Source: Desulfosarcina sp.
GTDB taxonomy: Bacteria > Desulfobacterota > Desulfobacteria > Desulfobacterales > Desulfosarcinaceae
Length of the DNA: 48,147 nucleotides
Direction: 5' to 3'
NCBI GenBank assembly: GCA_030145105.1
Contig: JAQYWF010000002.1
Span: 1 to 48,147, forward strand
Numbering within the stretch: position 1 is the stretch's first letter; each line of letters starts with the position of its first letter. The notes under the pieces were generated by a model. The model was not told the origin of the DNA. It was given only the letters and a program-made list of their open reading frames with translations, and searched no databases. A program made the translations under genes and the position numbers. Positions 10,613-38,793 of the stretch are shown piece after piece.

Positions 10613-11623
10613 ATGAAAAAAACCATGATCAAAGGAACCGGTCGTTATTTGCCCGCCCGCCTTGTCACCAATGACGAATTAGCCCAGTGGATGGACACAT
10701 CTAACGAGTGGATCATTCAACGAACAGGCATTGAACAGCGTTACTGGGTCCCCGAAGCGGGTGGCGTCGGCGCCTCCGACCTGGGCTTGGAAGCTTCAAA
10801 AATCGCCATGGACCGTTCCGGATGGGCTCCTGAAGAGATCGATCTGATCATTTTTGCCACCTTAAGTCCGGATCTTTTTTTCCCCGGTTCCGGTTGTCTG
10901 CTGGCCCATAAACTCGGCCTCTCATCCACACCAGCACTGGACATCCGCCAACAGTGTACCGGCTTTTTATATGGCGTGGCCACCGCTGACGCCTACATAC
11001 GCAGCAACCAGGCCAAACGTGTACTTCTGGTGGGCGCCGAGGTACACAGTACCGGGCTTGATATTTCGACCCGGGGCCGGGATGTGGCCGTTATTTTCGG
11101 AGACGGCGCTGCGGCTGTCTGCCTGGAAGGCATGGAAACGGATATAAAGGAGGGCGTGCTATCCTCGTGTTTGCATGCCGACGGCTCCCTGGCCGAAAGC
11201 CTAATGACCTTCGCGCCTGCATCGCGGGAAAATCCACGTCTCGATGAAAACATGTTGAAAGAAGGAAGACATTTTCCCACCATGGATGGCAGGAATATTT
11301 TTAAGACCGCCGTTCGGCGTCTTCCCGAGGTGGTTGGAGAGTCGCTGAAGAAAGCGGACATGCCTTTGGCAGCAGTCGATCTGTTCATCCCCCATCAGGC
11401 CAACCTGCGGATCAATCAGGCATTCGCCAAGGCCCTGGACCTCCCCGAATCAAAGGTCTATAACAACATTCAGCGTTTTGGAAACACCACGGCAGCCAGC
11501 ATTCCGTTGGCACTGGACGAGGCAGTCGAAAAAGGACTCGTTGGCGCCGGCAGCACGGTCATGTTTCTGGGGCTGGGTGCCGGTGTCACCTGGGGGGCCG
11601 TGCTTTATCGGTTTGCCGCTTAA
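10613..11623 (+). CDS. Beta-ketoacyl-ACP synthase III (FabH-family) condensing enzyme
   Basis: A 336-residue thiolase-fold condensing enzyme of the KAS III family, which condenses an acyl-CoA with malonyl-ACP. The active-site Cys is in DIRQQCTGF, the His in IPHQANLRIN and the Asn in FGNTTAASIP, giving the complete Cys-His-Asn triad. The segment FFPGSGCLLAHKLGL is also FabH-like. ATG 10613 follows GAGGAG at 10599-10604. Unlike standard fabH it is not beside plsX, fabD or rpmF but alone. It could be a housekeeping initiating enzyme, a specialised ketosynthase, or conceivably the OleA-like partner of the oleBCD genes 24 kb downstream. The cysteine context looks like FabH rather than OleA, so I favour the first two. 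Confidence 0.85.
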   Translation: MKKTMIKGTGRYLPARLVTNDELAQWMDTSNEWIIQRTGIEQRYWVPEAGGVGASDLGLEASKIAMDRSGWAPEEIDLIIFATLSPDLFFPGSGCLLAHKLGLSSTPALDIRQQCTGFLYGVATADAYIRSNQAKRVLLVGAEVHSTGLDISTRGRDVAVIFGDGAAAVCLEGMETDIKEGVLSSCLHADGSLAESLMTFAPASRENPRLDENMLKEGRHFPTMDGRNIFKTAVRRLPEVVGESLKKADMPLAAVDLFIPHQANLRINQAFAKALDLPESKVYNNIQRFGNTTAASIPLALDEAVEKGLVGAGSTVMFLGLGAGVTWGAVLYRFAA

Positions 11624-13019: not shown

Positions 13020-15797
13020 TTGACTTCGGAAAGTCGTTTTGTCGTCGGCATCGATCTGGGTACAACAAACAATTCGGTTGCCTATGTGGAACTGGGGAGT
13101 GTCGAGAATGACCGCCCCACTATCCAAAAATTCCCGATCCATCAGTTGATCGGCCCCGGTGAGTTCGCCCCCCATTCCGTCCTGCCGTCATTCTTATACA
13201 TTCCCGGTGAATACGACATCGCCGATCAGGACATGGCCGCCCCATGGACCATCGATCAACGAAGCCGGGATGACCGGAATTTTGTGGGCGCATTTGCCCG
13301 CGACCATGGCGGCAAGGTGCCGGCACGACTGGTCTCTTCAGCCAAAAGCTGGTTATGCAACAAAAGTGTGGATACCCGGGCCAGGATTTTGCCCTGGGGA
13401 GCCGGGGAGGAGGTATTCAAGGTTTCGCCGGTGCAGGCGTCGGCCGCCTATCTCAAACACATCCGCAAGGCGTGGAATGTGGCCATGGAGGATGATGAGG
13501 AAAGCTACCTGGAGAACCAGATGGTGGTCGTCACCATACCCGCTTCCTTTGACGAGGTGGCCAGAGACATGACCCTGGAAGCAGCCCGCATGGCAAGCCT
13601 TCCAGATGTCATTCTACTGGAAGAACCGCTGGCCGCATTTTACAGCTGGCTGATCCGGCACGAAAAAGATTGGCCTGACCATGTATCCACCAACCAATTG
13701 ATTCTGGTGTGCGACGTGGGCGGTGGCACCACGGACTTCACCCTCATCTCCCTGCGGATGGCAGACGGCAGCCCTCGATTCGAGCGTATTGCCGTTGGTG
13801 ATCATCTGATCCTGGGGGGTGACAACATGGATTTTTCCATCGCCCGCAGCGTGGCCCGTCGTTTGGGAAAATCACCGTCCAGCATGGACAGGGATGCCTG
13901 GAAGACCCTCTGCCACCAGTGCCGCAGGATCAAGGAAAATATCCTGGATGGCATTTCGGACAGCGGTAGGGTCACCCTGATAGGCGCAGGGTCAGGTCTG
14001 ATTGCCGGCACCCTGACCGCCCAGATCGACCGCCAGGAGATCGAAACGATCGTTCTGGAACAATTTTTTCCGTTATCCGGATCCAGCAGCCATACGGATT
14101 CACTGGAAGGAAACGCCTCGTGGGGACTTCCCTATGAAGCGGACACCGCCATCACTGGACACCTGAATCGTTTTCTGGACCGGCATCAGGCGGATGTAAA
14201 AGCTGCCATCGGAATCGTTGCTCCCTGCCCCGACCGGATCCTTTTCAACGGCGGATCGCTGAAGGCACAGGTGCTTCAGGATCGCATCCAAGAGGCTGTT
14301 CGCCATCGTTTTTCCCGCAAATCCGGCCCCGCGTGCCTGGACAACCGGGAGATGGACCTGGCGGTATCACTGGGTGCAGCCTATTACGGGATGGTCAAGG
14401 CAGGCATCGGTGTCCGCGTCGGCAGTGGAAGCCCACGCAGTTTTTACGTGGGCGTGGGTACTGGCGATTCGCATGACAGCAGCCATGCAAAGCAGGCTGT
14501 GTGCCTGGTGGAACGCGGACTGGAAGAGGGCAGCGCCATCACATTGCCCGACCGCGTGTTCAAGGTTCTGGCCAACCAGCCGGTAGCCATCGATCTATTC
14601 AGTTCCAGTTTCCGATCCGGTGACCATTGCGGTGATCGGGTAGACGTCGACGACAGCCTGACCGCTTTGCCGTCGTTGAATACCGTTATCCAGTTTGGCG
14701 ACAAGGGCATCCAGTCCGAGATTCCCGTTCGCCTGGAAGCAAGTTATACCGAAGTGGGCACCCTTGAGATCTGGTGTCAATCCTTGACCTCGCCTCACCG
14801 GTGGCAGCTGCGTTTTCAGCTGAGGGGATCCGTCACCTCGGAGGAGGTGGCCGAGAGGGAAGTTTTCGAGGCGTCTCGGGTCGAAAAGGCACAACAGGTC
14901 GTTCAATCGGCGTTTGCATCCGGTCGTGATAGATCACGACTGCCCCACCTGATGTCTGACCTCAGCGACGCCCTCGACTGCCCCAGGGACAGGTGGCCGC
15001 TAAGTTTGCTGCGTGATCTGGCCGATACCCTGCTCGATAGCGCGGCCGCAAGAAAGGTGTCGGCCGAGGACGAAAGCCGCTGGATGAACCTGCTTGGTTA
15101 TTGCCTCAGACCAGGCATGGGGGAAGGTTTTGATCCCCACCGCGTCAAAAAGCTTTGGAAAATTTATAAAAAAAGACCGATCCACGCCAATGCCCCACAA
15201 GTGCGCATTGAATGGTGGATCATGTGGCGACGGGTGGCCGCCGGTCTCAACCCCGGCCAGCAGCGGCAGTTTTTCCAGGACATTTCTCCTTTTCTGGTGC
15301 TGAAAAAAGGATCGCGCATTTCCCGGCAGGAATTCACCGAAATGTGGATGGCCACGGCCAACATGGAGCGCTTGCATGTCAAGGACAAAATCATCCTTGG
15401 ACGTCAGTTGATTGACCAATTTAAAGCCCGAAAGCCCCAACCTCAGCTGCTGTGGTCACTTTCCCGACTCGGCGCCCGCGATCTGCTCTATGGTTCCATC
15501 GACCGGGTTATCCCGCCGACTGAAGTTGTCGACTGGGTCGCCACGATACTATCTCTAACTTGGAAAAATAAGAAACCTGTGATTGAGATGCTTTCCCAGG
15601 TGGGCCGAAAAACTGGCGACCCCCTGCGCGATATCGCTCGGGAGACAAACGATGCAATTGTTCAATGGATTTTGTCTGCAGGTGATTTTCCAGAACCGCT
15701 GACACGCCTGACCCAACCCGCTTCACGAAAACAAAAAGAACAAAATGCCATTTTCGGTGAAGCTTTGCCTGCCGGTCTGATCCTGGAAGGTGGATGA
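13020..15797 (+). CDS. Atypical Hsp70 family protein (DUF2760 partner)
   Basis: A 925-residue protein with an Hsp70/actin-fold ATPase domain over about residues 1-480: phosphate-1 loop VVGIDLGTTNNSVAYVELG, connect-1 region EEPLAAFYSW, phosphate-2 loop CDVGGGTTDFTLI and adenosine motif FNGGSLKA. The C-terminal 440 residues are not a DnaK substrate-binding domain with EEVD-like tail but a long Trp- and Arg-rich region, matching the Hsp70 class with a DUF3731-type C-terminus. The start is a TTG at 13020, supported by AAGGGGG at 13007-13013 with six bases spacing. With the DUF2760 gene it forms a two-gene unit. It probably acts as an ATP-driven chaperone on a dedicated client; the client is unknown. 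Confidence 0.85.
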   Translation: MTSESRFVVGIDLGTTNNSVAYVELGSVENDRPTIQKFPIHQLIGPGEFAPHSVLPSFLYIPGEYDIADQDMAAPWTIDQRSRDDRNFVGAFARDHGGKVPARLVSSAKSWLCNKSVDTRARILPWGAGEEVFKVSPVQASAAYLKHIRKAWNVAMEDDEESYLENQMVVVTIPASFDEVARDMTLEAARMASLPDVILLEEPLAAFYSWLIRHEKDWPDHVSTNQLILVCDVGGGTTDFTLISLRMADGSPRFERIAVGDHLILGGDNMDFSIARSVARRLGKSPSSMDRDAWKTLCHQCRRIKENILDGISDSGRVTLIGAGSGLIAGTLTAQIDRQEIETIVLEQFFPLSGSSSHTDSLEGNASWGLPYEADTAITGHLNRFLDRHQADVKAAIGIVAPCPDRILFNGGSLKAQVLQDRIQEAVRHRFSRKSGPACLDNREMDLAVSLGAAYYGMVKAGIGVRVGSGSPRSFYVGVGTGDSHDSSHAKQAVCLVERGLEEGSAITLPDRVFKVLANQPVAIDLFSSSFRSGDHCGDRVDVDDSLTALPSLNTVIQFGDKGIQSEIPVRLEASYTEVGTLEIWCQSLTSPHRWQLRFQLRGSVTSEEVAEREVFEASRVEKAQQVVQSAFASGRDRSRLPHLMSDLSDALDCPRDRWPLSLLRDLADTLLDSAAARKVSAEDESRWMNLLGYCLRPGMGEGFDPHRVKKLWKIYKKRPIHANAPQVRIEWWIMWRRVAAGLNPGQQRQFFQDISPFLVLKKGSRISRQEFTEMWMATANMERLHVKDKIILGRQLIDQFKARKPQPQLLWSLSRLGARDLLYGSIDRVIPPTEVVDWVATILSLTWKNKKPVIEMLSQVGRKTGDPLRDIARETNDAIVQWILSAGDFPEPLTRLTQPASRKQKEQNAIFGEALPAGLILEGG

Positions 15798-27335: not shown

Positions 27336-30300
27336 ATGGATAAACACCCCCTTATCGCCGTCGTCGGGATGGACGGCATCTTTCCCGGCGCCCCGAACCT
27401 GGATCGGTTCTGGCAAAATATTGTCGACGGTATCGATCAGTCGGCACCGGTTCCGGAAGGCCGTTGGATCGCCCCATCTCAGGATCGGCTCAGCACCTCC
27501 CGGGTGCCGGATCGCCCCTACTCCAGCCACGCCTGTTTAATCACTGATTTCACCTTCGATCCCGATGCCTTTGCGCTGGATCCGGATCTGACCCGAGAAC
27601 TGGATCCGGTCCATCAGCTAACACTCGCTGCTGGAAAACGAGCGGTACAGAATTGTGTAACCGCTCCGGTTGACCACCACCGCATCGACACTATTCTGGC
27701 AGCCATTGCCCTGCCCACGGACAGCGCCTCCAGCTTTTCCCGGAAAATCCTGGGCAAGGCCATTGAACATCGCCTGTTTCCCCATGCATCGACCGCCCCG
27801 ACAACCCCAACCCGTTGCGAGGCTCTGGCCAGTCGGGTTGACGGCCTGCCTGCGGCCCTCCTGGCTGCGGAAATGGGATTTGGCGGGGACAGTTTTACCC
27901 TTGACGCCGCCTGCGCTTCCTCTATCTATGCGGTCAAGCTCGCCTGCCATGCACTGGCGGCAAACCGTGCAGACATGGTCGTGACCGGCGGCGTCTCGCG
28001 ACCCGAATGCCTTTACACCCAGACCGGTTTCAGCCAGCTTCAGGCCTTGTCGGTTTCGGGCCGTTGCGCACCCTTCGACAGGCAGGCAGACGGCCTGGTG
28101 GTGGGCGAAGGCGTGGGCATTCTGGTGTTGAAGCGCCTGGCCGATGCCATCGAACACGACGATACCATCCACGGCGTCATCCACGGTGTGGGGCTGTCCA
28201 ACGATATGCGAGGCAACCTGTTGGCCCCGGAAAGCCGCGGCCAGGTCCGCGCCATGCGACAGGCCTACCGGTCGGCCAGCTGGCAGCCATCTGACGTGGA
28301 CCACATTGAATGCCACGGCACCGGCACCCGTGCCGGCGACGCCACGGAAATCCAGAGCCTAATCCAACTCTGGAAAACAGAATCATCTGAGGCGGGTACT
28401 TGCGCCATCGGTTCGGTGAAATCCATGATCGGCCACCTGCTGACCACTGCCGGCGCGGCCGGCATGATCAAAACCCTGCTGGCCATCAAGCACCGGACCC
28501 TGCCGCCTTCGATCAATTTTGAACAACCCCCTGAAAATAGCCCCTTAAGGGGCAGTCCATTCAAGGTGCAAACCAAAGCAATGCCCTGGCATCCCCGTGC
28601 GGCAAAAACCCCCAGGCGGGCTGCAGTCAGCGCTTTCGGATTCGGCGGCATCAACGCCCATATCCTGTTTGAAGAGTGGCCGACACCTTCATCTGCAGAT
28701 CGATCTATCGGTTTCCAACGACTATCAACCCATGAAAATCCGGATGTTGAATCCCCTGCCCCGGTGGCCATCGTGGGCATGGATGTGACGCTGGGATCGC
28801 TAAACAATTTGCATGCATTTGCAAAAGCCGTATTCCACGGTCACAGTGCCATCGTTGATCGGCCCCCCGGCCGCTGGAAAGGGGCCGACGCGGCGTTGAT
28901 CGTTGCCTTGGGCGGCCTCGACCCCAAAGGAGCCTATGTCGACAGCCTTGACGTGGCTATCGGCGAGTTCCAGATCCCACCCAACGAAATCGACGATATC
29001 CTCCCCCAGCAGTTGCTGGCCCTCAAAGTGGGTGCCGGTGCCCTGACCGACGCCGGGTTCATCCTGCGTGAGCCCCGTGAACGCATGGGCGTAGTATTCG
29101 GTCTCGGATTCGATTTCGAAGCGACCAACTTTCATCTGCGCTGGCAGCTTTTCTCGGCGGTCAAACACTGGAACGCGGTGCATGGCCTGAACCTTGACGA
29201 CGGAACCATGAATCAATGGATGGAACGCCTGCGGGACCAGTGCGCCCCCCCCCTTACCCCGCCGCGGGTCATGGGGGCATTAGGAGGTATCGTCGCCAGC
29301 CGCATGGCCCGGGAATTTCGCTTCGGCGGACCCAGTTTCGTGGTCTCAGCCGATGCTGCCTCCGGGATCAAAGCACTGCAGGTTGCCGTCGACCTGCTGC
29401 AGGACAAGGCGGTCGACGCCATGCTGATCGGTGCGGTGGACCTGGCCGCTGAAGGGCGCAACGTGATTCGTATGAACCAGTTTTTGCCCCTTTCACCCAC
29501 CAATGCGATCCGCCCATTCGACGCCGCAGCCGATGGGACGCTTCCCGGCGACGGTGCAGTGGCGCTGGTCCTCAAGCCACTGGCCCAGGCCCGAATCGAC
29601 GGCGATCGCATTTATGCCGTCATCCGCGGTATCGGAAACGCCGGGGGTGACGATCTCGCAGAGGGCCGTGTCAGCGAATCGACCTACTGCCGCTCACTGA
29701 CCGAATGCTTTGGCCAGACCGGTGTCTCGGTCGCTTCGGTGTCATATGTGGAAGCCCACGGCGCCGGTACGCCGGATCTGGACCGCATGGAGATCGCCGC
29801 CCTTACCGGCTTTTTTCCCGGTCCCGACCGAACCGACCCATCTGCGGCCATCGCACTGGGATCCACCAAACCCATTGCCGGGTATAGCGGTGCTGCCGAC
29901 GGTCTGGCATCCCTGGCGAAGACAGCACTGTGCTTGCATCATCGCGTTCTGCCACCCCTTGCCGGTTTTAGGCTGCCCGAACCATCGGACGGACTGGCGA
30001 AAAGAACGAGTCCATTTCACGTTCCGGATCGGGCGCAGGCGTGGTATCGGGATCGGGAACGCGGTCCCCGAGCCGCCTGCTGCGCATCGATCACCATGGA
30101 TGGCAATTGCAGCCATGTGCTGATGCAGGAAGATGAAACCAGTGCATCTGCGGTCGAATACAGTGGTCCCACCCCGGCCATCGACACCCGCGCCGGCCTC
30201 TTCGTGGTCAGCGGAAACGCACCGCCGCAACTGATTGAAGGCCTTGCAGGACTGGAGGATTTCTTATCGCGCGCCCCCGCTCCTGCGTCGGTGGAGACGG

Positions 30301-33300
30301 CCGCCGGAAGGTGGATGCAATTACACCCACCGCGGTCCGATCATCGACTGGCTGTCGCCCTGATTCTGAAACCGGGCGATAGTTATCGTAGGTTGTTCAT
30401 CGACGCCCGCCAGGCCGTTGCCTCCGGTGAATCCGATGCGCATTCTCGACAGGTATTTTTCCGCAGTCGTCCCATCGGGGCCGATGCACGGGTGGCCCTG
30501 GTTTACCCGGGCTCAGGCAACCATTACCTGGGCATGGGACGAGACCTGGCCCTGCGATTCCCCGGCATCGTCAACGGGATGGACCAAGAAACCGAACATT
30601 TGAAGACCCAGTTCCGGCCCTGGAACCTGATGCCCTGGCGATGCTCCTGGCAACCCGGATGGGAGGCAGAAGCCATCTCCCGGCTCAAGGCTGACCCCCT
30701 GAACATGATTTTCGGGCAGGTGGTTTTCGGTGATCTCATGACCCGCGTGCTCGACCGGTTTTCCGTTCGTGCGGATGCCGTCATCGGCTACAGCCTGGGT
30801 GAATCCTCAGCCCTGTTCGCCCAGGGCGTGTGGCCAGACCGGGGGGACATGCTGGCGCGCATGCAGACGACCGACCTGTTCGCCACCCAGCTTGCCGGCC
30901 CGTGCCTGGCACTTCGTCAGGCATGGCGGATTCCAATGGAAGAGGCCGTGGTATGGCGGGTGGCGGTAGTCAACCGGCCGGCAAAATCGGTGCGGGAAAC
31001 CCTTGCGAACATTCCCCGGGTGCGACTACTCATCGTCAATTCACCCCATGAGTGCGTCATCGGCGGATTGGAATGGGCGGTGGACCAGGCCATTGCCAGC
31101 TTGGACTGTCAGGCGGTATACTTGGACGGCGTGGTCACCGTCCACTGCGATGCGGCCAGTCCCGTGGCAGAGGCCTACCGACGCCTGCATGTTTTTCCAA
31201 CCACATCCAAACAAGGGCTTGATGTTTACAGCTGCAGCTGGGCCACCACCTACGAGGTCACCTCTAACCGGGCTGCTGATTCCATTGTAAAACAAGCAGT
31301 TGGTGGATTTGACTTCACCCAGACGATTAAGCGCGCATGTGCCGATGGGGTCAAGGTATTCATTGAGGTAGGTCCACGGGCGACGTGCAACCGCATGATT
31401 GATCAGATCTTAACGGGTCAACCCCATGTTGCCGTGGCCGCCAACTACGGCAACGAAGACGAAATCGCCTCGCTGCTGCGATGCCTGGCCCGACTGGTCG
31501 CCGAGCGGGTGCCTGTGAATCTGAAGGCATTGTATGAGGGGTTTGAACCCACCATCGAATCGGGGTCGGTGGTTGCACGAAAGATCGTATCTGTCGCCGT
31601 TGGCGGTCACATGCTCTGTCCACGCCTGCCTGAACCATTGACCAAGCAGAAACCGTTTGATTCGTTGCCGCCTGAACCTAAAAAGTCTGAAGTACCCCCT
31701 GAGGTATCCGTCGGTTATCAGCCCATGGAGGGATCGCCATCCCCAGCTGAAAACGGTTCAACTTCCGATGCTCCGTGGGCGCAATTGCTCGAGGCGGCCC
31801 AGCGGAACATGGAAACCACGGCCAGCGCCCACCGGCAATTTCTCGATTTCTCTCAGGAATTGACCCGAAACGTTGCCGAGGCCGTCGACCTGCAGACCCG
31901 CCTGCTGGGGTTGGGCGCCCGCTTGACCGACGAGCCCCCGGACCAGCCAGAGGCGGCCGCTGCCGCTATACAGGTGCAGAAATCGCCAAGCCCCCCCGCC
32001 TACGACCGGGAGATGTGCATGGCTTTTGCCGTTGGCAGCGTGGGCCGCGTCCTGGGCCCGGCCTTTGACGTGGTGGACACCCACCGCGTGCGGGTGCGCC
32101 TGCCCGACGAGCCGTTGATGCTGGTGGATCGCATCGTCTCCGTGCAGGGTGAAATGCTCTCCATGGAGTCGGGCCGGGTGGTCACCGAGCATGACGTCCT
32201 GCCCGGTGCCTGGTACCTGGATGGTGATTGCGCACCGGTATGTATCAGCGTGGAGGCCGGCCAGGCGGACCTGTTCCTGAGTTCGTACCTGGGCATCGAC
32301 CACCAGGTGAAGGGTGAGCGGGCCTACCGTCTGCTGGACGCGGTGGTGGTCTTCCACAGGGGGTTGCCTCGTCCCGGGGAGACCATTCGCTATGAGATCG
32401 CCATCGACCGTTTCGTGCGCCATGGGGAAACCTGGATGTTTTTTTTCCGTTTCGAGGGATATATCAACGGAGAACACCTGATCAGCATGCGCGATGGTTG
32501 TGCCGGCTTTTTCACCGAGGCCGAAGTGGTCAACTCAGGTGGTATCATCCTCACCCAGCAAGAGCGACAAGCCGTCCCCGGCAGATGCCCGGCAAACTGG
32601 CAACCGCCGGTTCCCATGGCCAGAGAAACCTATTCGGATGACCAGGTGGAGGCCCTGCGCCAGGGCGACTTGGCCGGCTGTTTCGGCCGGCAGTTTACCG
32701 GCATCGGCCTTTCAACCGGTTTGCATTTGCCCGGTGGTCGCATGCGCCTGATTCACCGCATCATCGAACTTGACCCCGAGGGCGGTCGTTATGGTCTGGG
32801 CCTGATCCGGGCCGAAACGGACATCCATCCCGACGACTGGTTTCTCGTCTGCCATTTCGTGGATGACATGGTCATGCCCGGCACCCTCATGTACGAATGT
32901 TGCGGCCACACGCTGCGGGTCTTTCTCCAGCGCATGGGATGGGTCACGGACAAACCTGGCGTGTGCTACGAACCGGTAATCGGCAATGCTGCCCGGCTCA
33001 AGTGCCGCGGCCCGGTCACCCCGGTCACACGCCATGTGCACTACGAAATCCAGATCAGTGAAATCGGATACGGCCCGGAACCTTACGCCATTGCCGACGC
33101 CCACATGTCTGCCGACGATCGTCCCATCGTCTTTTTCAAGGATATGTCCATGAAGATGACCGGGATCGGGCGCGAGGAGATCGAGGCCGTATGGTGTCAA
33201 CAGAAAATTCGGACGGCGATGGTCGATGAACCGACGGCGTCCGCCGCCCCCCTTTACGACCGGGCGTCAATTCTGGCCTTCGCCACCGGGAAACCCTCCG

Positions 33301-34400
33301 AGGCCTTTGGTGATCCCTACCGCATCTTCGACGAACACCGCAAGATCGCCCGACTTCCGGGACCGCCCTACTGCTTCATGGACAGGGTAGTCCATGTAGA
33401 GCCACCCCCGTGGTCGCTCAAGGCCGATGGATGGGTAACCGCCCAGTATGACACACCCGAGCAGGCGTGGTATTTTGCCGCCGACCGCTCCGGCGTCATG
33501 CCCTTTTGCGTGTTGCTGGAAATCGCCCTGCAACCCTGTGGATGGCTTGCGGCCTATGCAGGATCTGCCCTGCGCAGCCAGCAAGACCTGAAGTTTCGCA
33601 ACCTGGGGGGCAGTGGCGTCCTGCACCGGCAGGTGACGCCGGCCACCGGCACCTTGACCATGCGCTGCCGAATGACCAAGGTCAGCGAGGCGGCGGACAT
33701 GATCATTGAAAATTTTGAATTCGAGGTACATGCCGGTGGCGAAACGGTCTACGCCGGCGACACCTATTTCGGGTTCTTTTCCGCAGAAGCGCTCAACGAG
33801 CAAAAGGGTATGGGGCATGCAGATCCCTTGGTCAAGGCCATGCTACCCTACACCGGCTCCACGGACGGTGCCTGCGACCTGTCTATGGATCCCCCGCACA
33901 CACCGGAATCCGCTACCAATGTACCCGTATCTGTGGATCAGCTGACGCTGCCAGGCAAGGCACTGATGATGATTGACCGCATCGAGGCCAGTTTGCCGGA
34001 AGGCAGAGCATCTGGATTGGGCTACATTCGCGGTCTTAAACAGGTGGACCCGGACGAATGGTTTTTCAAGGCCCATTTCCACCAGGATCCGGTCTGCCCC
34101 GGCTCCTTGGGGTTGGAATCCTTTTTACAACTGATCAAAACTGTGGCAATGAAACGGTGGCCGGATCTGAGGGCAACCCACCGGTTCCGCATGGTGGAAG
34201 GCCGCCGCCACAACTGGACCTATCGTGGTCAGATCATTCCGAAAAATAAAGTCGTTGCCGTGGAAGCCCTGATCACTCATGTGTGTGAAGGACCCTCCCC
34301 GGCAATTCGGGCCAACGGCCTGCTCAAAGTGGATGGCCTACCCATATACAAAATGGAAAATTTTGAACTGGCTCTGGTTCCAGCAGCCGACAACACGTGA
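27336..34400 (+). CDS. PfaC-like megasynthase: KS-CLF-AT-(DH)4
   Basis: A 2354-residue multidomain enzyme of the PUFA-synthase type. KS1 (about 1-450) has the full triad: Cys193 in DAACASS, His327 in ECHGTGT, His367 in GSVKSMIGHLL. The second ketosynthase fold (about 475-940) is a chain-length-factor: the Cys position is Ala674 (SADAASG), His808 is kept (EAHGAGT) and the last His is Tyr850. An acyltransferase (about 1048-1400) carries Ser1153 in GYSLGES. After a linker, four FabA-like hotdogs follow (about 1585-2350); the second and fourth have catalytic His (His1840 in CHFVDDMVMPGTL, His2247 in AHFHQDPVCPGSL) and the first and third lack it, as in the PfaC tetradomain. No ACP Ser motif, KR or ER is present. 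It overlaps or abuts oleB, hence the likely role in feeding OleB-C-D. Confidence 0.92.
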   Translation: MDKHPLIAVVGMDGIFPGAPNLDRFWQNIVDGIDQSAPVPEGRWIAPSQDRLSTSRVPDRPYSSHACLITDFTFDPDAFALDPDLTRELDPVHQLTLAAGKRAVQNCVTAPVDHHRIDTILAAIALPTDSASSFSRKILGKAIEHRLFPHASTAPTTPTRCEALASRVDGLPAALLAAEMGFGGDSFTLDAACASSIYAVKLACHALAANRADMVVTGGVSRPECLYTQTGFSQLQALSVSGRCAPFDRQADGLVVGEGVGILVLKRLADAIEHDDTIHGVIHGVGLSNDMRGNLLAPESRGQVRAMRQAYRSASWQPSDVDHIECHGTGTRAGDATEIQSLIQLWKTESSEAGTCAIGSVKSMIGHLLTTAGAAGMIKTLLAIKHRTLPPSINFEQPPENSPLRGSPFKVQTKAMPWHPRAAKTPRRAAVSAFGFGGINAHILFEEWPTPSSADRSIGFQRLSTHENPDVESPAPVAIVGMDVTLGSLNNLHAFAKAVFHGHSAIVDRPPGRWKGADAALIVALGGLDPKGAYVDSLDVAIGEFQIPPNEIDDILPQQLLALKVGAGALTDAGFILREPRERMGVVFGLGFDFEATNFHLRWQLFSAVKHWNAVHGLNLDDGTMNQWMERLRDQCAPPLTPPRVMGALGGIVASRMAREFRFGGPSFVVSADAASGIKALQVAVDLLQDKAVDAMLIGAVDLAAEGRNVIRMNQFLPLSPTNAIRPFDAAADGTLPGDGAVALVLKPLAQARIDGDRIYAVIRGIGNAGGDDLAEGRVSESTYCRSLTECFGQTGVSVASVSYVEAHGAGTPDLDRMEIAALTGFFPGPDRTDPSAAIALGSTKPIAGYSGAADGLASLAKTALCLHHRVLPPLAGFRLPEPSDGLAKRTSPFHVPDRAQAWYRDRERGPRAACCASITMDGNCSHVLMQEDETSASAVEYSGPTPAIDTRAGLFVVSGNAPPQLIEGLAGLEDFLSRAPAPASVETAAGRWMQLHPPRSDHRLAVALILKPGDSYRRLFIDARQAVASGESDAHSRQVFFRSRPIGADARVALVYPGSGNHYLGMGRDLALRFPGIVNGMDQETEHLKTQFRPWNLMPWRCSWQPGWEAEAISRLKADPLNMIFGQVVFGDLMTRVLDRFSVRADAVIGYSLGESSALFAQGVWPDRGDMLARMQTTDLFATQLAGPCLALRQAWRIPMEEAVVWRVAVVNRPAKSVRETLANIPRVRLLIVNSPHECVIGGLEWAVDQAIASLDCQAVYLDGVVTVHCDAASPVAEAYRRLHVFPTTSKQGLDVYSCSWATTYEVTSNRAADSIVKQAVGGFDFTQTIKRACADGVKVFIEVGPRATCNRMIDQILTGQPHVAVAANYGNEDEIASLLRCLARLVAERVPVNLKALYEGFEPTIESGSVVARKIVSVAVGGHMLCPRLPEPLTKQKPFDSLPPEPKKSEVPPEVSVGYQPMEGSPSPAENGSTSDAPWAQLLEAAQRNMETTASAHRQFLDFSQELTRNVAEAVDLQTRLLGLGARLTDEPPDQPEAAAAAIQVQKSPSPPAYDREMCMAFAVGSVGRVLGPAFDVVDTHRVRVRLPDEPLMLVDRIVSVQGEMLSMESGRVVTEHDVLPGAWYLDGDCAPVCISVEAGQADLFLSSYLGIDHQVKGERAYRLLDAVVVFHRGLPRPGETIRYEIAIDRFVRHGETWMFFFRFEGYINGEHLISMRDGCAGFFTEAEVVNSGGIILTQQERQAVPGRCPANWQPPVPMARETYSDDQVEALRQGDLAGCFGRQFTGIGLSTGLHLPGGRMRLIHRIIELDPEGGRYGLGLIRAETDIHPDDWFLVCHFVDDMVMPGTLMYECCGHTLRVFLQRMGWVTDKPGVCYEPVIGNAARLKCRGPVTPVTRHVHYEIQISEIGYGPEPYAIADAHMSADDRPIVFFKDMSMKMTGIGREEIEAVWCQQKIRTAMVDEPTASAAPLYDRASILAFATGKPSEAFGDPYRIFDEHRKIARLPGPPYCFMDRVVHVEPPPWSLKADGWVTAQYDTPEQAWYFAADRSGVMPFCVLLEIALQPCGWLAAYAGSALRSQQDLKFRNLGGSGVLHRQVTPATGTLTMRCRMTKVSEAADMIIENFEFEVHAGGETVYAGDTYFGFFSAEALNEQKGMGHADPLVKAMLPYTGSTDGACDLSMDPPHTPESATNVPVSVDQLTLPGKALMMIDRIEASLPEGRASGLGYIRGLKQVDPDEWFFKAHFHQDPVCPGSLGLESFLQLIKTVAMKRWPDLRATHRFRMVEGRRHNWTYRGQIIPKNKVVAVEALITHVCEGPSPAIRANGLLKVDGLPIYKMENFELALVPAADNT

Positions 34401-34402
34401 CC

Positions 34403-35314
34403 ATGAAACCGATTAAACCAACCGTCGATCCGGACGACTACCAGTATCTTTACCCATTTCAATCTCATTTTCTGGATCGCAACGGATTACGCTATCATTA
34501 TGTCGACCAGGGGAAAGGCGACCCGGTGGTCATGGTGCACGGAAACCCCACCTGGTCATTTTTCTTTCGCCGCATGATCACCGCCCTTGCTTCGGGCCAT
34601 CGCACCATCGCCCCCGATCACATGGGATGCGGCCTGTCGGACAAACCCAGTGACGGTGAGTACGACTTTCGACTGCAAAGCCGGTTGGATGATTTTTCGG
34701 CGTTGATGGATCATCTTGACCTGGACCGGGTCACGCTCATGGTCCATGACTGGGGCGGCATGATCGCCATGGCCTGGGCCTTGGCCAATCCGCATCGGGT
34801 GGCACGCCTGATCATCACCAACACGGCAGGCTTTTTTCCACCAGGCCGCAAGGGCATTCCCTTGCGGCTGTGGGTGATTCGCAATCTGGGCGCCCTGGCC
34901 ACGCCGGCCGTACTTTATGGAAACCTGTTTGCCAGAGGGGCCCTTCACATGGCACCGCGAAAACGGTTGGCCGCGAAAGTGAAACAAGGGCTGCTGGCAC
35001 CCTATAACTGCCCGAAAAACCGGCTGGCCACCCTGCGCTTTGTCCAGGACATTCCCCTGGTACCCGGTGATCCGGGATTTTCCATCGTCGACAGGGTGGA
35101 CCGGCACCTGGCCGCACTGGCCCATATCCCCATGCTGATCCTGTGGGGGCGGCACGATTTCGTCTTCGACGTGGATTACTACAACGAGTGGTGCCGACGG
35201 TTTCCCAAGGCTGAAAAGCACCTGTTCGACGACGCCGGCCACTACCTGCTGGAGGATGTGCCGGAGCGGATCATCGGATTGGCAACTGATTTTCTGGCAC
35301 GGCATCCAGTGTAA
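34403..35314 (+). CDS. oleB: OleB, beta-lactone decarboxylase (alpha/beta hydrolase)
   Basis: A 303-residue alpha/beta hydrolase related to haloalkane dehalogenases, which converts a cis-beta-lactone into a cis-olefin and CO2. The oxyanion segment is HGNPTWSF, the nucleophile Asp116 sits in MVHDWGGM (Asp rather than Ser, with the following Trp), and the catalytic His280 is in DAGHYLLED; Asp in GRHDFVF is the likely acid. The ATG at 34403 is two bases after the megasynthase stop; an in-frame GTG at 34397 would overlap that stop by four bases. Either way translation should be coupled. Order oleB-oleC-oleD matches known ole clusters. Confidence 0.9.
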   Translation: MKPIKPTVDPDDYQYLYPFQSHFLDRNGLRYHYVDQGKGDPVVMVHGNPTWSFFFRRMITALASGHRTIAPDHMGCGLSDKPSDGEYDFRLQSRLDDFSALMDHLDLDRVTLMVHDWGGMIAMAWALANPHRVARLIITNTAGFFPPGRKGIPLRLWVIRNLGALATPAVLYGNLFARGALHMAPRKRLAAKVKQGLLAPYNCPKNRLATLRFVQDIPLVPGDPGFSIVDRVDRHLAALAHIPMLILWGRHDFVFDVDYYNEWCRRFPKAEKHLFDDAGHYLLEDVPERIIGLATDFLARHPV

Positions 35315-35320
35315 ATAGAA

Positions 35321-36997
35321 ATGTTTATGGAATCAACGTCCATCGCTCCTGACCTTACCACCGTCAACGTGGCCACCTATTTGCGCGACATGGCACGCCT
35401 CCAACCCTACAAGCGGGCGGTGGTCTGCCCTTGCGGCAGGGACGGCCAAAACCGGGTGGCATACACCCACCTTACCTTCCGCCAACTGGACATCGAATCG
35501 GATTGCCTGGCCCGGGGTCTTAACGATAGGGGGGTCAGTCGCGGTGTGCGAACCATCCTCATGGTCAAGCCGAGCCTGGATTTCTTCGCCCTGGTCTTTG
35601 CTCTCTTCAAGGTCGGGGCCGTGCCCGTTGTGGTCGACCCAGGTATGGGCGTCTCCCGAATGTTGAACTGCCTGAAGGAAAGTCAGGCCCAGGCACTGAT
35701 TGGCATCCCTCCGGCCCACGTGCTGCGCACCTTGGCCCCCAGGTATTTCAAAGACGTCAAGACCTTCATTACCGTGGGCAGGCGCTGGTTTTGGGGTGGA
35801 TTCACCCTGGGTCAGGTACGCAGCAGACAGTGGGAACCATACCGCATGGCGGACACCCGGGCCGATGAAATCGCCGCCATCCTCTTTACCACCGGCAGTA
35901 CCGGTCCGGCCAAGGGTGTATATTACACCCACGGGGTCTTCGATGCCCAGGTTCGCAGCATCCGCGCCCAGTTTGGAATCACCCCGGAGGAAATCGACCT
36001 GCCCACATTTCCGCTTTTTGCCCTGTTTGACCCGGCATTGGGAATGACGGCCATTATTCCGGACATGGACCCCACCAAGCCAGCCCATGTCAACCCGGAG
36101 CGAATCATTGAAGCCATCGTCAATCACGGCGTCACCAATATGTTCGCCTCCCCTGCCCTACTCAACCGCGTGGGCCGCTACGGCAAGGAAAATGGAATCA
36201 GACTGCCCACCTTAAAGCGGGTGATTTCCGCGGGCGCACCGGCCACACCGGCCAATATCGAACAGTTTTCCGCCATGCTCACCGAGGGCGCTCAAATCCA
36301 TACCGGGTATGGGGCCACGGAGGCCATGCCGGTCAGCGCTTTCGGCAGCAACGCGATCCTGAACGAAACCCGCAAGCTCAGCGAACAAGGCTACGGCATG
36401 TGCGTCGGGCGACCCGTTGCCGGCATCGACGTGCGAATCATCCGTATCTCGGACGGTCCGATTGCCCAGTGGACCGACGACCTGCTATTACCGGACGGAG
36501 AAATCGGCGAGATCAGCGTTCGCGGCGATCAGGTGACCCGCGGCTATTACGAGCGGCCCCGGGACGACGCACTGGCCAAGATCGTCGACGGCGACACCTT
36601 CTGGCACCGCATGGGAGACTTGGGATGGATTGACAAAAAAGGCCGTATCTGGTTCTGCGGCCGCAAAAGCCACCGGGTGGTTTGTTCAAATAAGACCATG
36701 TACACGATTCCCTGCGAGGCCTTATTCAACAACCATCCTCGCGTTTTCCGCAGCGCGCTGGTCGGTGTAGGATCCCAGGGACGCCAGCGGCCGGTGGTCT
36801 GTATCGAACTGGTGCCCGGAGACGCCGGCAAGGATAAAAAAGGCTTGAAAAAAGAACTGTTGGCGTTGGCCAAGTCCAGCCCAATCAGTGAGGACATCGA
36901 AACGATCCTGTTTCACCGGGCCTTCCCTGTTGATATCCGCCACAATTCCAAGATTTTCAGGGAGCAGTTGGCCGTTTGGGCGGAAAAGAAAATTTAA
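35321..36997 (+). CDS. oleC: OleC, beta-lactone synthetase (AMP-ligase superfamily)
   Basis: A 558-residue ANL-superfamily enzyme that uses ATP to close a beta-hydroxy acid to a beta-lactone. The phosphate loop is LFTTGSTGPAKGV. Segments typical of OleC rather than fatty acyl-CoA ligases are the DLPTFPLFALFDPALGM block and the DPGMG and PDMDPTKPAH stretches. The adenylate-binding TGYGATEAMPVS and the hinge region GDLGWIDKKGRIWFCGRK are present. The start ATG 35321 is six bases after the oleB stop, and an in-frame ATG follows two codons later. The C-terminal domain is complete. It is the second gene of the ole unit. Confidence 0.93.
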   Translation: MFMESTSIAPDLTTVNVATYLRDMARLQPYKRAVVCPCGRDGQNRVAYTHLTFRQLDIESDCLARGLNDRGVSRGVRTILMVKPSLDFFALVFALFKVGAVPVVVDPGMGVSRMLNCLKESQAQALIGIPPAHVLRTLAPRYFKDVKTFITVGRRWFWGGFTLGQVRSRQWEPYRMADTRADEIAAILFTTGSTGPAKGVYYTHGVFDAQVRSIRAQFGITPEEIDLPTFPLFALFDPALGMTAIIPDMDPTKPAHVNPERIIEAIVNHGVTNMFASPALLNRVGRYGKENGIRLPTLKRVISAGAPATPANIEQFSAMLTEGAQIHTGYGATEAMPVSAFGSNAILNETRKLSEQGYGMCVGRPVAGIDVRIIRISDGPIAQWTDDLLLPDGEIGEISVRGDQVTRGYYERPRDDALAKIVDGDTFWHRMGDLGWIDKKGRIWFCGRKSHRVVCSNKTMYTIPCEALFNNHPRVFRSALVGVGSQGRQRPVVCIELVPGDAGKDKKGLKKELLALAKSSPISEDIETILFHRAFPVDIRHNSKIFREQLAVWAEKKI

Positions 36998-37178: not shown

Positions 37179-38219
37179 ATGGATACCAACACCAATCAAT
37201 CACCAGCGAGTAGTATCAAAAAAAACATTCTGGTTACCGGCGGCGGAGGGTTTCTGGGCCATGCCATCGTACAGCAACTGCTGGACAAAGGACATCGGGT
37301 GGTCAGCTTTTCGCGATGCACACACCCAGATCTTGACACCCTCGATGTCCCTCAGCTATCCGGTGACATCGCCGACGCAGATGCCGTCAAAGACGCGGTT
37401 CGCGGCATGGATGCCGTTTTCCACGTGGCGGCCAAAGCCGGGGTGTGGGGCGCGCTCGAGGATTATCACCGACCCAACGTGATCGGCACCCGAAATGTCA
37501 TTTCGGCCTGCCGATCCAGCCGGGTGCCGATGCTGATATACACCAGCAGCCCCAGCGTGGTTTTTGACGGCGGCGACATGCAGGGGGTGGACGAATCAGT
37601 CCCCTACCCGGCTCATTATCATGCGCCCTACCCACAGACCAAAGCCATGGCCGAACAGGCCGTGCTGGCCGCCGCAGACGATACGCTTAAAACCGTCGCC
37701 CTGCGGCCGCATCTGATCTGGGGACCGCAGGACAACCACCTGGTGCCGCGCATCATCGCCCGGGCCGATAGCCTGAGGCGGGTAGGTGGCGGAGAGAACC
37801 GCGTGGACACGATTTACGTCGATAACGCTGCCCGCGCCCACGTGCTGGCCATGGCGGCGCTGGAGAAAAACCCGGCGGTTTCGGGCAGGGCCTACTTCAT
37901 CAGCGACGATAATCCCATCGGCTTGTGGGAGATGGTTGATCGAATCCTGAATGCCGGCGACAAGCCCCCGCTGACCAAAACCGTGTCACCCAGGGCGGCC
38001 TATTGGATCGGTACGTTAATGGAGTGGGTGTATCGCACTTTCGGTATCTCCGGGGAGCCCCGCATGACCCGCTTCGTTGCCCGGGAACTGGCTACGTCCC
38101 ATTGGTTTGACATTTCTGCGGCCAAGCGAGACCTGGGTTACACGGCCGACATTTCCATCGAGGAAGGCATGAAGCGGCTCAAGACCTGGTTGACGGAAAG
38201 CTCTTCCCTATCACCTTAA
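37179..38219 (+). CDS. oleD: OleD, 2-alkyl-3-oxoalkanoate reductase (extended SDR)
   Basis: A 346-residue NAD(P)-dependent extended short-chain dehydrogenase of the 3-beta-HSD branch. In the Ole pathway it reduces the beta-keto acid to the beta-hydroxy acid used by OleC. The nucleotide loop is VTGGGGFLG; VFHVAAKAGVWG, YTSSPSVVFDG and RPHLIWGPQDNHL are hallmark OleD stretches; the catalytic Tyr and Lys lie in YPQTKAMAE. The N-terminal 14 residues before the dinucleotide fold are unconserved. It sits 181 bases downstream of oleC on the same strand. The order of action (D, C, B) is the reverse of gene order. Confidence 0.93.
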   Translation: MDTNTNQSPASSIKKNILVTGGGGFLGHAIVQQLLDKGHRVVSFSRCTHPDLDTLDVPQLSGDIADADAVKDAVRGMDAVFHVAAKAGVWGALEDYHRPNVIGTRNVISACRSSRVPMLIYTSSPSVVFDGGDMQGVDESVPYPAHYHAPYPQTKAMAEQAVLAAADDTLKTVALRPHLIWGPQDNHLVPRIIARADSLRRVGGGENRVDTIYVDNAARAHVLAMAALEKNPAVSGRAYFISDDNPIGLWEMVDRILNAGDKPPLTKTVSPRAAYWIGTLMEWVYRTFGISGEPRMTRFVARELATSHWFDISAAKRDLGYTADISIEEGMKRLKTWLTESSSLSP

Positions 38220-38292
38220 AAAAATGGTAAAGGAAGGGACAGCGAGTCAAAACTGAAACCTTATCTGTACCAATGAACCAAGGAGTGTGGCC

Positions 38293-38793
38293 GTGGAACT
38301 GACTGATCTATTGCCTCTGGAAAAATGGACCCAGATAGAAAATGAGATTCATGAACACTCGGGACTGGAGTCCAACGTGTTCAATACCGACGGCATCCGC
38401 ATTACCGACAATAAAGTATGGGTCAATCGCCTCTGTCCGGCCATCAAGGCCACGGACAAAGGCCAGTCGTTCATTTGTGCCGTGGCCCACATGAACCTGG
38501 CCAACCAGGCCAAGGATGAGAAGCGGCCGGTGATCGAAGCGTGCGACGCCGGGCTGATGAAGATCGTGGTACCGATTTTTGTCGACGGCAATTACATCGG
38601 CGCCCTGGGCGCCTGTGGCCTGCTGCCTGCAGACGGCGAGGTGGATTCCTTCCTGGTGAATAAAATGACCGATATCGACGAAGCAAACATCGAGGCGTTA
38701 TGCGAGGACCTGGCCGTCATCGAAAAAAATTCGGCCGAGGAAGTTGCCCAGTTCATCTGGGAAAAAATCGAAGCAGTCGTTTCAGAAGCCTGA
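38293..38793 (+). CDS. Stand-alone PocR sensory domain protein
   Basis: A 166-residue protein that consists of little more than a PocR-type ligand-binding domain. The conserved Cys and His run through RLCPAIKA, ICAVAHMNLANQA, VIEACDAGL and GACGLLP, and the sheet KIVVPIFVDGNYIGALG is typical. I prefer the GTG at 38293, seven bases from AAGGAG at 38280-38285; the GTG at 38287 is too close to it. PocR domains sense small molecules and usually belong to regulators or kinases. Without an output domain this one may act as a binding partner or Cys-rich redox/ligand sensor. Position just after oleD is suggestive only. Confidence 0.8.
   Translation: MELTDLLPLEKWTQIENEIHEHSGLESNVFNTDGIRITDNKVWVNRLCPAIKATDKGQSFICAVAHMNLANQAKDEKRPVIEACDAGLMKIVVPIFVDGNYIGALGACGLLPADGEVDSFLVNKMTDIDEANIEALCEDLAVIEKNSAEEVAQFIWEKIEAVVSEA

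Follow-up and report, generated by a model that had tools for sequence, protein, structure and literature searches.

Genes at the locus

The window, by which we mean the whole analysed stretch of 48,147 nucleotides of a Desulfosarcina sp. contig, carries one long open reading frame followed on the same strand by three ole genes. The features are as follows.

27336..34400, + strand: pfaBC, fused PfaB/PfaC subunit of 2,354 aa; one ATG open reading frame, with orthologs in related genomes
27354..28700, + strand: ketosynthase (KS), aa 7-455, with Cys193, His327 and His367
28746..30170, + strand: chain-length factor (CLF), approximately aa 471-945, without catalytic Cys, placed by domain search and alignment
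30480..31541, + strand: PfaB-type acyltransferase (AT), aa 1049-1402, matching TIGR02816, with Ser1153
31551..31979, + strand: linker, approximately aa 1406-1548, with a short segment common to PfaA and no carrier motif
31980..34397, + strand: four FabA-type hotdogs with His1840 and His2247, interpreted as a pair of double-hotdog dehydratases
34397..35314, + strand: oleB, alpha/beta hydrolase, named by position and likeness to OleB of ole operons
35321..36997, + strand: oleC, olefin beta-lactone synthetase family
37179..38219, + strand: oleD, 2-alkyl-3-oxoalkanoate reductase family

A PfaB/PfaC fusion with conserved active sites

Pfam detected two ketoacyl-synthase stretches in the long protein (the stronger at aa 7-396), an Acyl_transf_1 match at aa 1217-1361 and four FabA stretches; best E values of 6e-84 for FabA and 4e-82 for KS exclude chance as the source of these calls. 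The NCBIfam PfaB model TIGR02816 aligned to aa 1049-1402 through positions 175-534 of its 534 with 106.6 bits, the fused AT scoring below the 144.3 cut-off that applies to whole proteins. The top sequence match in the PDB was chain A of 6riw (ORF10 there), which we take to be the KS-CLF of Moritella PfaC; it covered residues 7-869 with E 2e-124, compared with E 9e-106 for the second-best match. A search of viral contigs returned no relative.

Active-site residues were followed in an alignment of 26 sequences, consisting of the window's PfaBC and 25 orthologs. The orthologs come from 25 of the 29 loci L040-L068, the alignment leaving aside two partial loci (L046 and L065) and two that contain a single stop (L049 and L052). 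Cys193, His327, His367, Ser1153, His1270, His1840 and His2247 are each present in all 26 sequences, which bears out a sequence-only reading of this DNA that had called the first KS active by motif and picked Ser1153 for the AT. That reading had also taken the second KS, with Ala674 and Tyr850, for a CLF-like partner. Indeed, position 674 is never Cys (Ala in 9 sequences, Ser in 2, Thr in 3 and Glu in 12); position 850 is His in 17 of the 26 and Tyr in the window's protein. Its count of two hotdogs out of four with a catalytic His is likewise correct: hotdogs 2 and 4 retain His1840 and His2247, and no His was found in hotdogs 1 and 3 at the positions inspected (1630, 1631 and 2050) in any of the 26 sequences. 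In line with work on PfaC, the four hotdogs presumably make up two double-hotdog dehydratases. The protein thus combines the features that mark PfaC and pfaBC proteins, namely an active KS followed by a CLF without catalytic Cys, two FabA-type dehydratases with catalytic His, and a fused-in PfaB-type AT.

No carrier, ketoreductase (KR) or enoyl reductase (ER) domain had been visible to the sequence-only reading, and none emerged here: Pfam models for PP-binding, KR and ER gave no match in PfaBC at E<=10, the linker included. We also considered a diverged ACP in the linker at residues 1415-1555. This candidate was rejected, as no Pfam match at E<=10 and no carrier-like motif was found in linker residues 1406-1560 of any of the 26 alignment rows. 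Marine PfaC is not known to have ACP, KR or ER either, so the absence is no distinguishing mark of PfaBC. Marine PfaC and PfaB (Moritella, Shewanella) have the same KS-CLF and dehydratase content and the same PfaB-type AT, with PfaB being a separate protein there.

A 41-residue stretch of the linker (window 31788-31910) recurs in the PfaA segment preceding the carriers (L012:7499-8120), with 32% identity and E 5e-5 for a single comparison. This common stretch could possibly be a docking or dimer helix of both subunits.

Among the types of Shulse and Allen, a fused pfaBC (KS-CLF-AT-DH2) is described for Type C, Type I has a pfaBC fusion and Type K is similar to Type I, these types lying in, or mostly in, the Deltaproteobacteria (PMC3098273). 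Myxobacterial Pfa3 of Aetherobacter and Minicystis also has its AT between CLF and dehydratase, and carries in addition a C-terminal AGPAT (PMC8436480), which is absent from PfaBC here by Pfam at E<=10. The domain order CLF-AT-dehydratase, earlier compared with Pfa3, is therefore the Pfa3/pfaBC order (PMC3098273, PMC8436480). The window encodes the same fused protein as the Deltaproteobacterial types; it differs from them in that pfaD-pfaA is not adjacent and oleA is missing from the operon (PMC3098273).

Pfa partner genes in the same genome

In Pfa systems, the ACPs and the KR reside in PfaA, and the ER is PfaD. The window's genome, a 465-contig assembly that is 86.75% complete, was searched for these partners. 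PfaD was found at C48:10726-12039 (617 bits, cut-off 449). Shortly after it on the same contig, PfaA begins (KS-MAT-ACP-ACP) and runs off the contig end within the ACPs. On contig C319, a coding piece that opens at the contig edge has the order carrier, KR, PKS-type dehydratase, which is that of a PfaA-type end (ACP-KR-DH). Judged from protein starts, the genes after this piece resemble those after pfaA in the same-genus genome G004, and the piece is therefore very probably the other end of PfaA, with the break falling within the repeated carriers. Three phosphopantetheinyl transferases are also encoded. Hence PfaA with tandem ACPs (in two contig pieces), PfaD and a phosphopantetheinyl transferase occur in one genome with pfaBC, and nothing is missing from the synthase.

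These data correct the view of the protein as a megasynthase lacking parts. The tandem ACPs and phosphopantetheinyl transferases that the sequence-only reading had proposed to look for genome-wide are there, and the partner genes form a pfa system, an outcome that this reading had named as one that would refute it; in same-genus genomes G004 and G006 the system is clustered with pfaBC. Its proposal that carriers reach the protein in trans is right, the tandem ACPs of PfaA being encoded elsewhere in the genome.

An atypical megasynthase working on its own, with carriers and reductases drawn from ordinary type II FAS and OleD as its ketoreductase, would account for the lack of carrier, KR and ER domains in the protein and for the absence of any carrier or PfaD match on the window's own contig in the genome-wide searches. 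We consider it very improbable in view of the PfaA front with tandem ACPs, the PfaA-type end with its KR and PfaD in the genome, the clustering of Pfa partners with pfaBC in G004 and G006, and an OleD that keeps its near-invariant residues and lies beside OleB and OleC. The earlier idea of OleD standing in for a KR was rejected for the same reason: the KR of the C319 piece makes OleD unnecessary as a ketoreductase, and it looks like an ordinary OleD.

We are confident that the protein serves as PfaBC in a polyunsaturated fatty acid (Pfa) synthase built from several proteins. What counts against this reading is that the assembly is fragmented and incomplete, that pfaBC and pfaD-pfaA sit on different contigs in the window's genome, that in the one-contig genome G001 the PfaA KS lies ~42 kb from pfaBC, and that we know of no product for the organism or its genus.

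The same genome (G000) also encodes a second iterative-looking PKS on contig C357 (L011:4776-11030), with an AT, two carriers (by Pfam), KR, DH and a 4HBT-type domain, which begins at the contig edge. A lone KS at C37:369-1763, near a contig edge, might be its front.

The ole genes and gene order in relatives

Downstream of pfaBC, oleB has a GTG as its first start codon, with a 4-nt overlap (GTGA) at the pfaBC stop; an alternative in-frame ATG lies two codons further, at 34403. The OleB, OleC and OleD genes of the OleABCD pathway follow in a row with intact residues. OleB and OleC show no departures at 67 and 136 near-invariant positions, respectively, and OleD, of 83 such positions, departs at terminal gap columns only. 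This conservation argues for the three proteins being in use. Against the named NCBIfam Ole models, neither OleC nor OleD reaches the equivalog cut-off. There is no oleA in the window's operon, where pfaBC abuts oleB.

A FabH-like gene at window 10613-11623 was tried as the missing OleA and rejected. Its product scored 324 bits with the fabH model (cut-off 292) and 103 bits with NF006720 (cut-off 285), a model that linked and unlinked OleA alike pass, unlike this protein.

Other genes of the window were noted in passing. A 168-aa protein with a PocR-type sensory domain is encoded after oleD (38287-38793) and has the same place in G001, G009 and G094. The 435-aa protein at 43524-44831 matches only the first half (positions 3-430 of 880) of a model for A-adding tRNA nucleotidyltransferase; proteins with DHH-like starts, alike to it in size, are encoded near oleB in G017 and G005. 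A DUF2760 gene precedes the one for a 925-aa Hsp70/HscA-like protein that ends in a DUF3731 tail (13020-15797).

In relatives, some PfaBC match was obtained in at least 96 of 97 genomes at E<=0.001, many of these being KS domains only. In the same-genus genomes G004 and G006 a single stretch reads pfaBC-oleB-oleC-oleD-xerC-pfaD-pfaA, small genes being interspersed, and pfaD and pfaA are a few kb downstream of oleD. In G094, G039 and G044, and equally in G022 and G018, the gene order is pfaBC, an OleA-type gene, oleB, oleC, oleD. The 4-nt overlap between pfaBC and oleB, scored on the first oleB start codon (actual start codons may differ), recurs in seven genomes of the genus, namely the window's own, G002, G003, G004, G006, G008 and G009; hence no oleA remnant lies between the two genes in any of the seven. 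For G001 our script chose another oleB start, G005 has ~2 kb with other open reading frames between pfaBC and oleB, and G017, from a neighbouring genus of the same family, has a gap of 19 nt.

Two further arrangements were observed. On contig C1 of G077, oleA and oleC (at 3.64 Mb) lie apart from pfaBC (at 3.16 Mb), the operon being separated in another way. In the draft genome G007, pfaBC extends over several reading frames (C11:58345-64868), which may reflect assembly errors or decay.

OleA across 97 genomes

To survey OleA, a profile built from five OleA proteins adjoining pfaBC was run over the 97 genomes; 63 of them gave a high-scoring match (>460 bits). Adjacency was scored with one PfaBC C-terminal piece per genome, and at least 71 of the 97 genomes have such a readable end. 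Among the matches listed, oleA lies directly downstream of pfaBC in at least 46 of these 71, with gaps of 5-857 nt; 45 of the 46 proteins are high-scoring and one (G059) is a truncated match of 160 bits. The other 25 genomes, by the same matches, comprise nine of the window's genus plus G017, 13 with a high-scoring OleA elsewhere or on another contig, and two (G042 and G095) with a low-scoring OleA type only. Since in G046 and G063, which are among the 13, another PfaBC piece adjoins a high-scoring OleA, 46 is a low count.

The high-scoring type was found in none of the 13 genomes of the window's genus, three of which are single contigs and one of which is in two contigs. Instead, 12 of the 13 have a single low-scoring match of 176-273 bits (partial in G007 and G012), which in closed genomes is far from pfaBC. 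In the four genomes of one or two contigs, no OleA-type match besides this unlinked OleA was obtained at E<=1e-30. In the remaining genome, G010, OleA was absent at E<=1e-30, as was OleC at 1e-120. G017 has the same OleA pattern as the 12 genomes of the genus. As the same-genus genomes share ancestry, the loss of the operon OleA amounts to one or two events, not twelve. On a quick PfaBC tree of 29 rows, with G060, G066 and G077 (linked-type OleA off the operon) scored as not lost, two changes were counted for the genus plus G017, a single one being also compatible with the data.

The unlinked OleA belongs to a different clade

The only OleA-type match in the window's genome is encoded at C23:28531-29547, unlinked to pfaBC. 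Its context is conserved across same-genus genomes, so it does not come from a stray contig. The nearest named OleA hits suggest that these bacteria are probably Desulfobacterales. Like a linked OleA, it passes NF006720 ("3-oxoacyl-ACP synthase III"; 428 bits, and 473 bits for the linked protein, cut-off 285). It retains C123, H266, N296 and E97, presumably the OleA active-site residues, which are invariant in 15 rows; the genome therefore has, besides OleBCD, an OleA with the active-site Cys, His, Asn and Glu of the pathway. Among PDB entries it matches 3fk5 most strongly (317 bits); the linked OleA of a relative scored 223 bits, to 3row. We take both structures to be X. campestris OleA, an enzyme that acts on FAS-type acyl-CoA.

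A careful OleA tree was made with 50 of 108 rows, without the second copies of G086 and G026, which have long branches. The unlinked OleA falls into a 16-row group (support 99/97), of which four rows are named Desulfobacterales and the remainder come from the window's order. This orphan group stands beside Chloroflexota OleA (97/96), and 14 linked-type rows, 11 of which adjoin pfaBC, form a separate group (100/100); the tree output warns of meeting long branches where linked-type rows join L138 and L140. A quick tree of all 108 rows has similar main groups with weaker support, the G086 copy going with Chloroflexota and the second G026 copy beside the linked type. We also asked whether the unlinked OleA could be a relocated operon gene. 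A tree constrained to unite the OleA of the genus with linked OleA from five same-family genomes was rejected (AU p 0.00014); a looser constraint, with the 14 linked-type rows and the genus's OleA as one side of a branch, was not (p 0.121). The genome's only OleA-type match thus lies on the tree side of Xanthomonas (3fk5, 3row) and Chloroflexota OleA; it differs from these in that no oleBCD was seen beside it in the loci inspected.

The orphan-group OleA also occurs alongside the linked type in G061 and in G090 (there as a partial match at a contig edge), and it was therefore probably present in the order before the operon OleA was lost. Our reading of these sequences is that the operon gene was lost in the genus, which would leave the orphan as its sole OleA.

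Discussion

The "incomplete" megasynthase is settled as a standard split subunit of a PUFA synthase. By analogy with other species, PfaA (KS-MAT-tandem ACP-KR-DH) would carry the growing chain on its ACPs. PfaBC would act in trans, its KS-CLF performing late elongations and setting the length and its two active FabA-type dehydratases making and isomerising double bonds; its PfaB-type AT would end the chain, and PfaD would serve as enoyl reductase. Two chains would then be condensed by OleA and turned into an olefin by OleD, OleC and OleB. In the genus, the unlinked OleA would be the best candidate for feeding OleBCD. Chain length, product and order of action are those suggested by work on other species, and the product is likely a polyunsaturated chain for hydrocarbon synthesis.

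The literature points the same way. Ole genes were reported in 44 of 80 genomes examined, and co-occurrence with ole genes was proposed for Type I (PMC3098273). Geobacter bemidjiensis, which produces hentriacontanonaene (C31:9), carries a tandem array of pfaD, A, B, C, oleA, B, C, D and pfaE (PMC4882568); pfa and ole genes are together there as here, the difference being that its oleA is in the cluster and its product is known. PfaB is described as the terminal acyltransferase (PMC12895367). In Shewanella, the two pathways are connected by OleA, for which the Pfa ACPs are the probable source of acyl groups (PMC6463001). Published pfaBC fusions, Pfa3 and pfa-ole tandems place the megasynthase among known kinds, and what is new is the missing operon OleA of the genus, not the megasynthase itself. 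A displaced OleA was not mentioned in the titles and abstract openings of the literature searched, in which subscription journals were mostly outside coverage.

Since the operon OleA, which is the Pfa-Ole link in Shewanella, is absent here, the passage of chains from Pfa to Ole is less assured than in relatives. Pfa might make membrane or storage PUFA and OleBCD might use FAS-derived chains through the unlinked OleA, the two systems sharing an operon only. The closer match of the genome's OleA to PDB OleA (317 bits to 3fk5, as against 223 to 3row for the linked protein), its grouping with Chloroflexota OleA, and an AMP-ligase-like gene (23% to OleC) ~2 kb from it, near which such a gene also lies in several same-genus loci, would fit this explanation. 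Joint production is nevertheless suggested by pfaBC abutting oleB in the genus, by oleA directly following pfaBC in at least 46 of 71 genomes among the matches listed, and by three loci of the wider clade of the unlinked OleA (L138, L140 and L179) that are near pfa genes. We regard separate use of the two systems as possible, though rather doubtful.

The unlinked OleA might also make ketones or another product, with OleBCD idle or fed by an unrecognised condensing enzyme. The orphan-group OleA does occur beside the linked type (G061, G090) and in G095, where no OleC passes E 1e-120, and six further KAS III-type proteins are encoded in the window's genome. We find this account unlikely, given that the OleBCD residues are intact and that the four one- or two-contig genomes of the genus have no other OleA-type match at E<=1e-30.

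From gene order and phylogeny, we give even odds to a history in which the genus lost its operon OleA, OleBCD came to be supplied by an unlinked OleA from a different clade, which is an orphan in other genomes of the order as well, and the operon closed to pfaBC-oleB. Such a history looks like displacement of the entry enzyme of a pathway, and the connection between Pfa and hydrocarbons that has been published, through OleA and the Pfa ACPs (PMC6463001), seems re-wired in this genus. If the takeover by the unlinked OleA is true, the genus would serve as a natural experiment on whether OleA needs to dock on the carriers of PfaA. Comparison of the genus with same-family genomes that have linked OleA could show whether the type of OleA decides the polyunsaturation of the hydrocarbon, and what role such lipids have in these bacteria.
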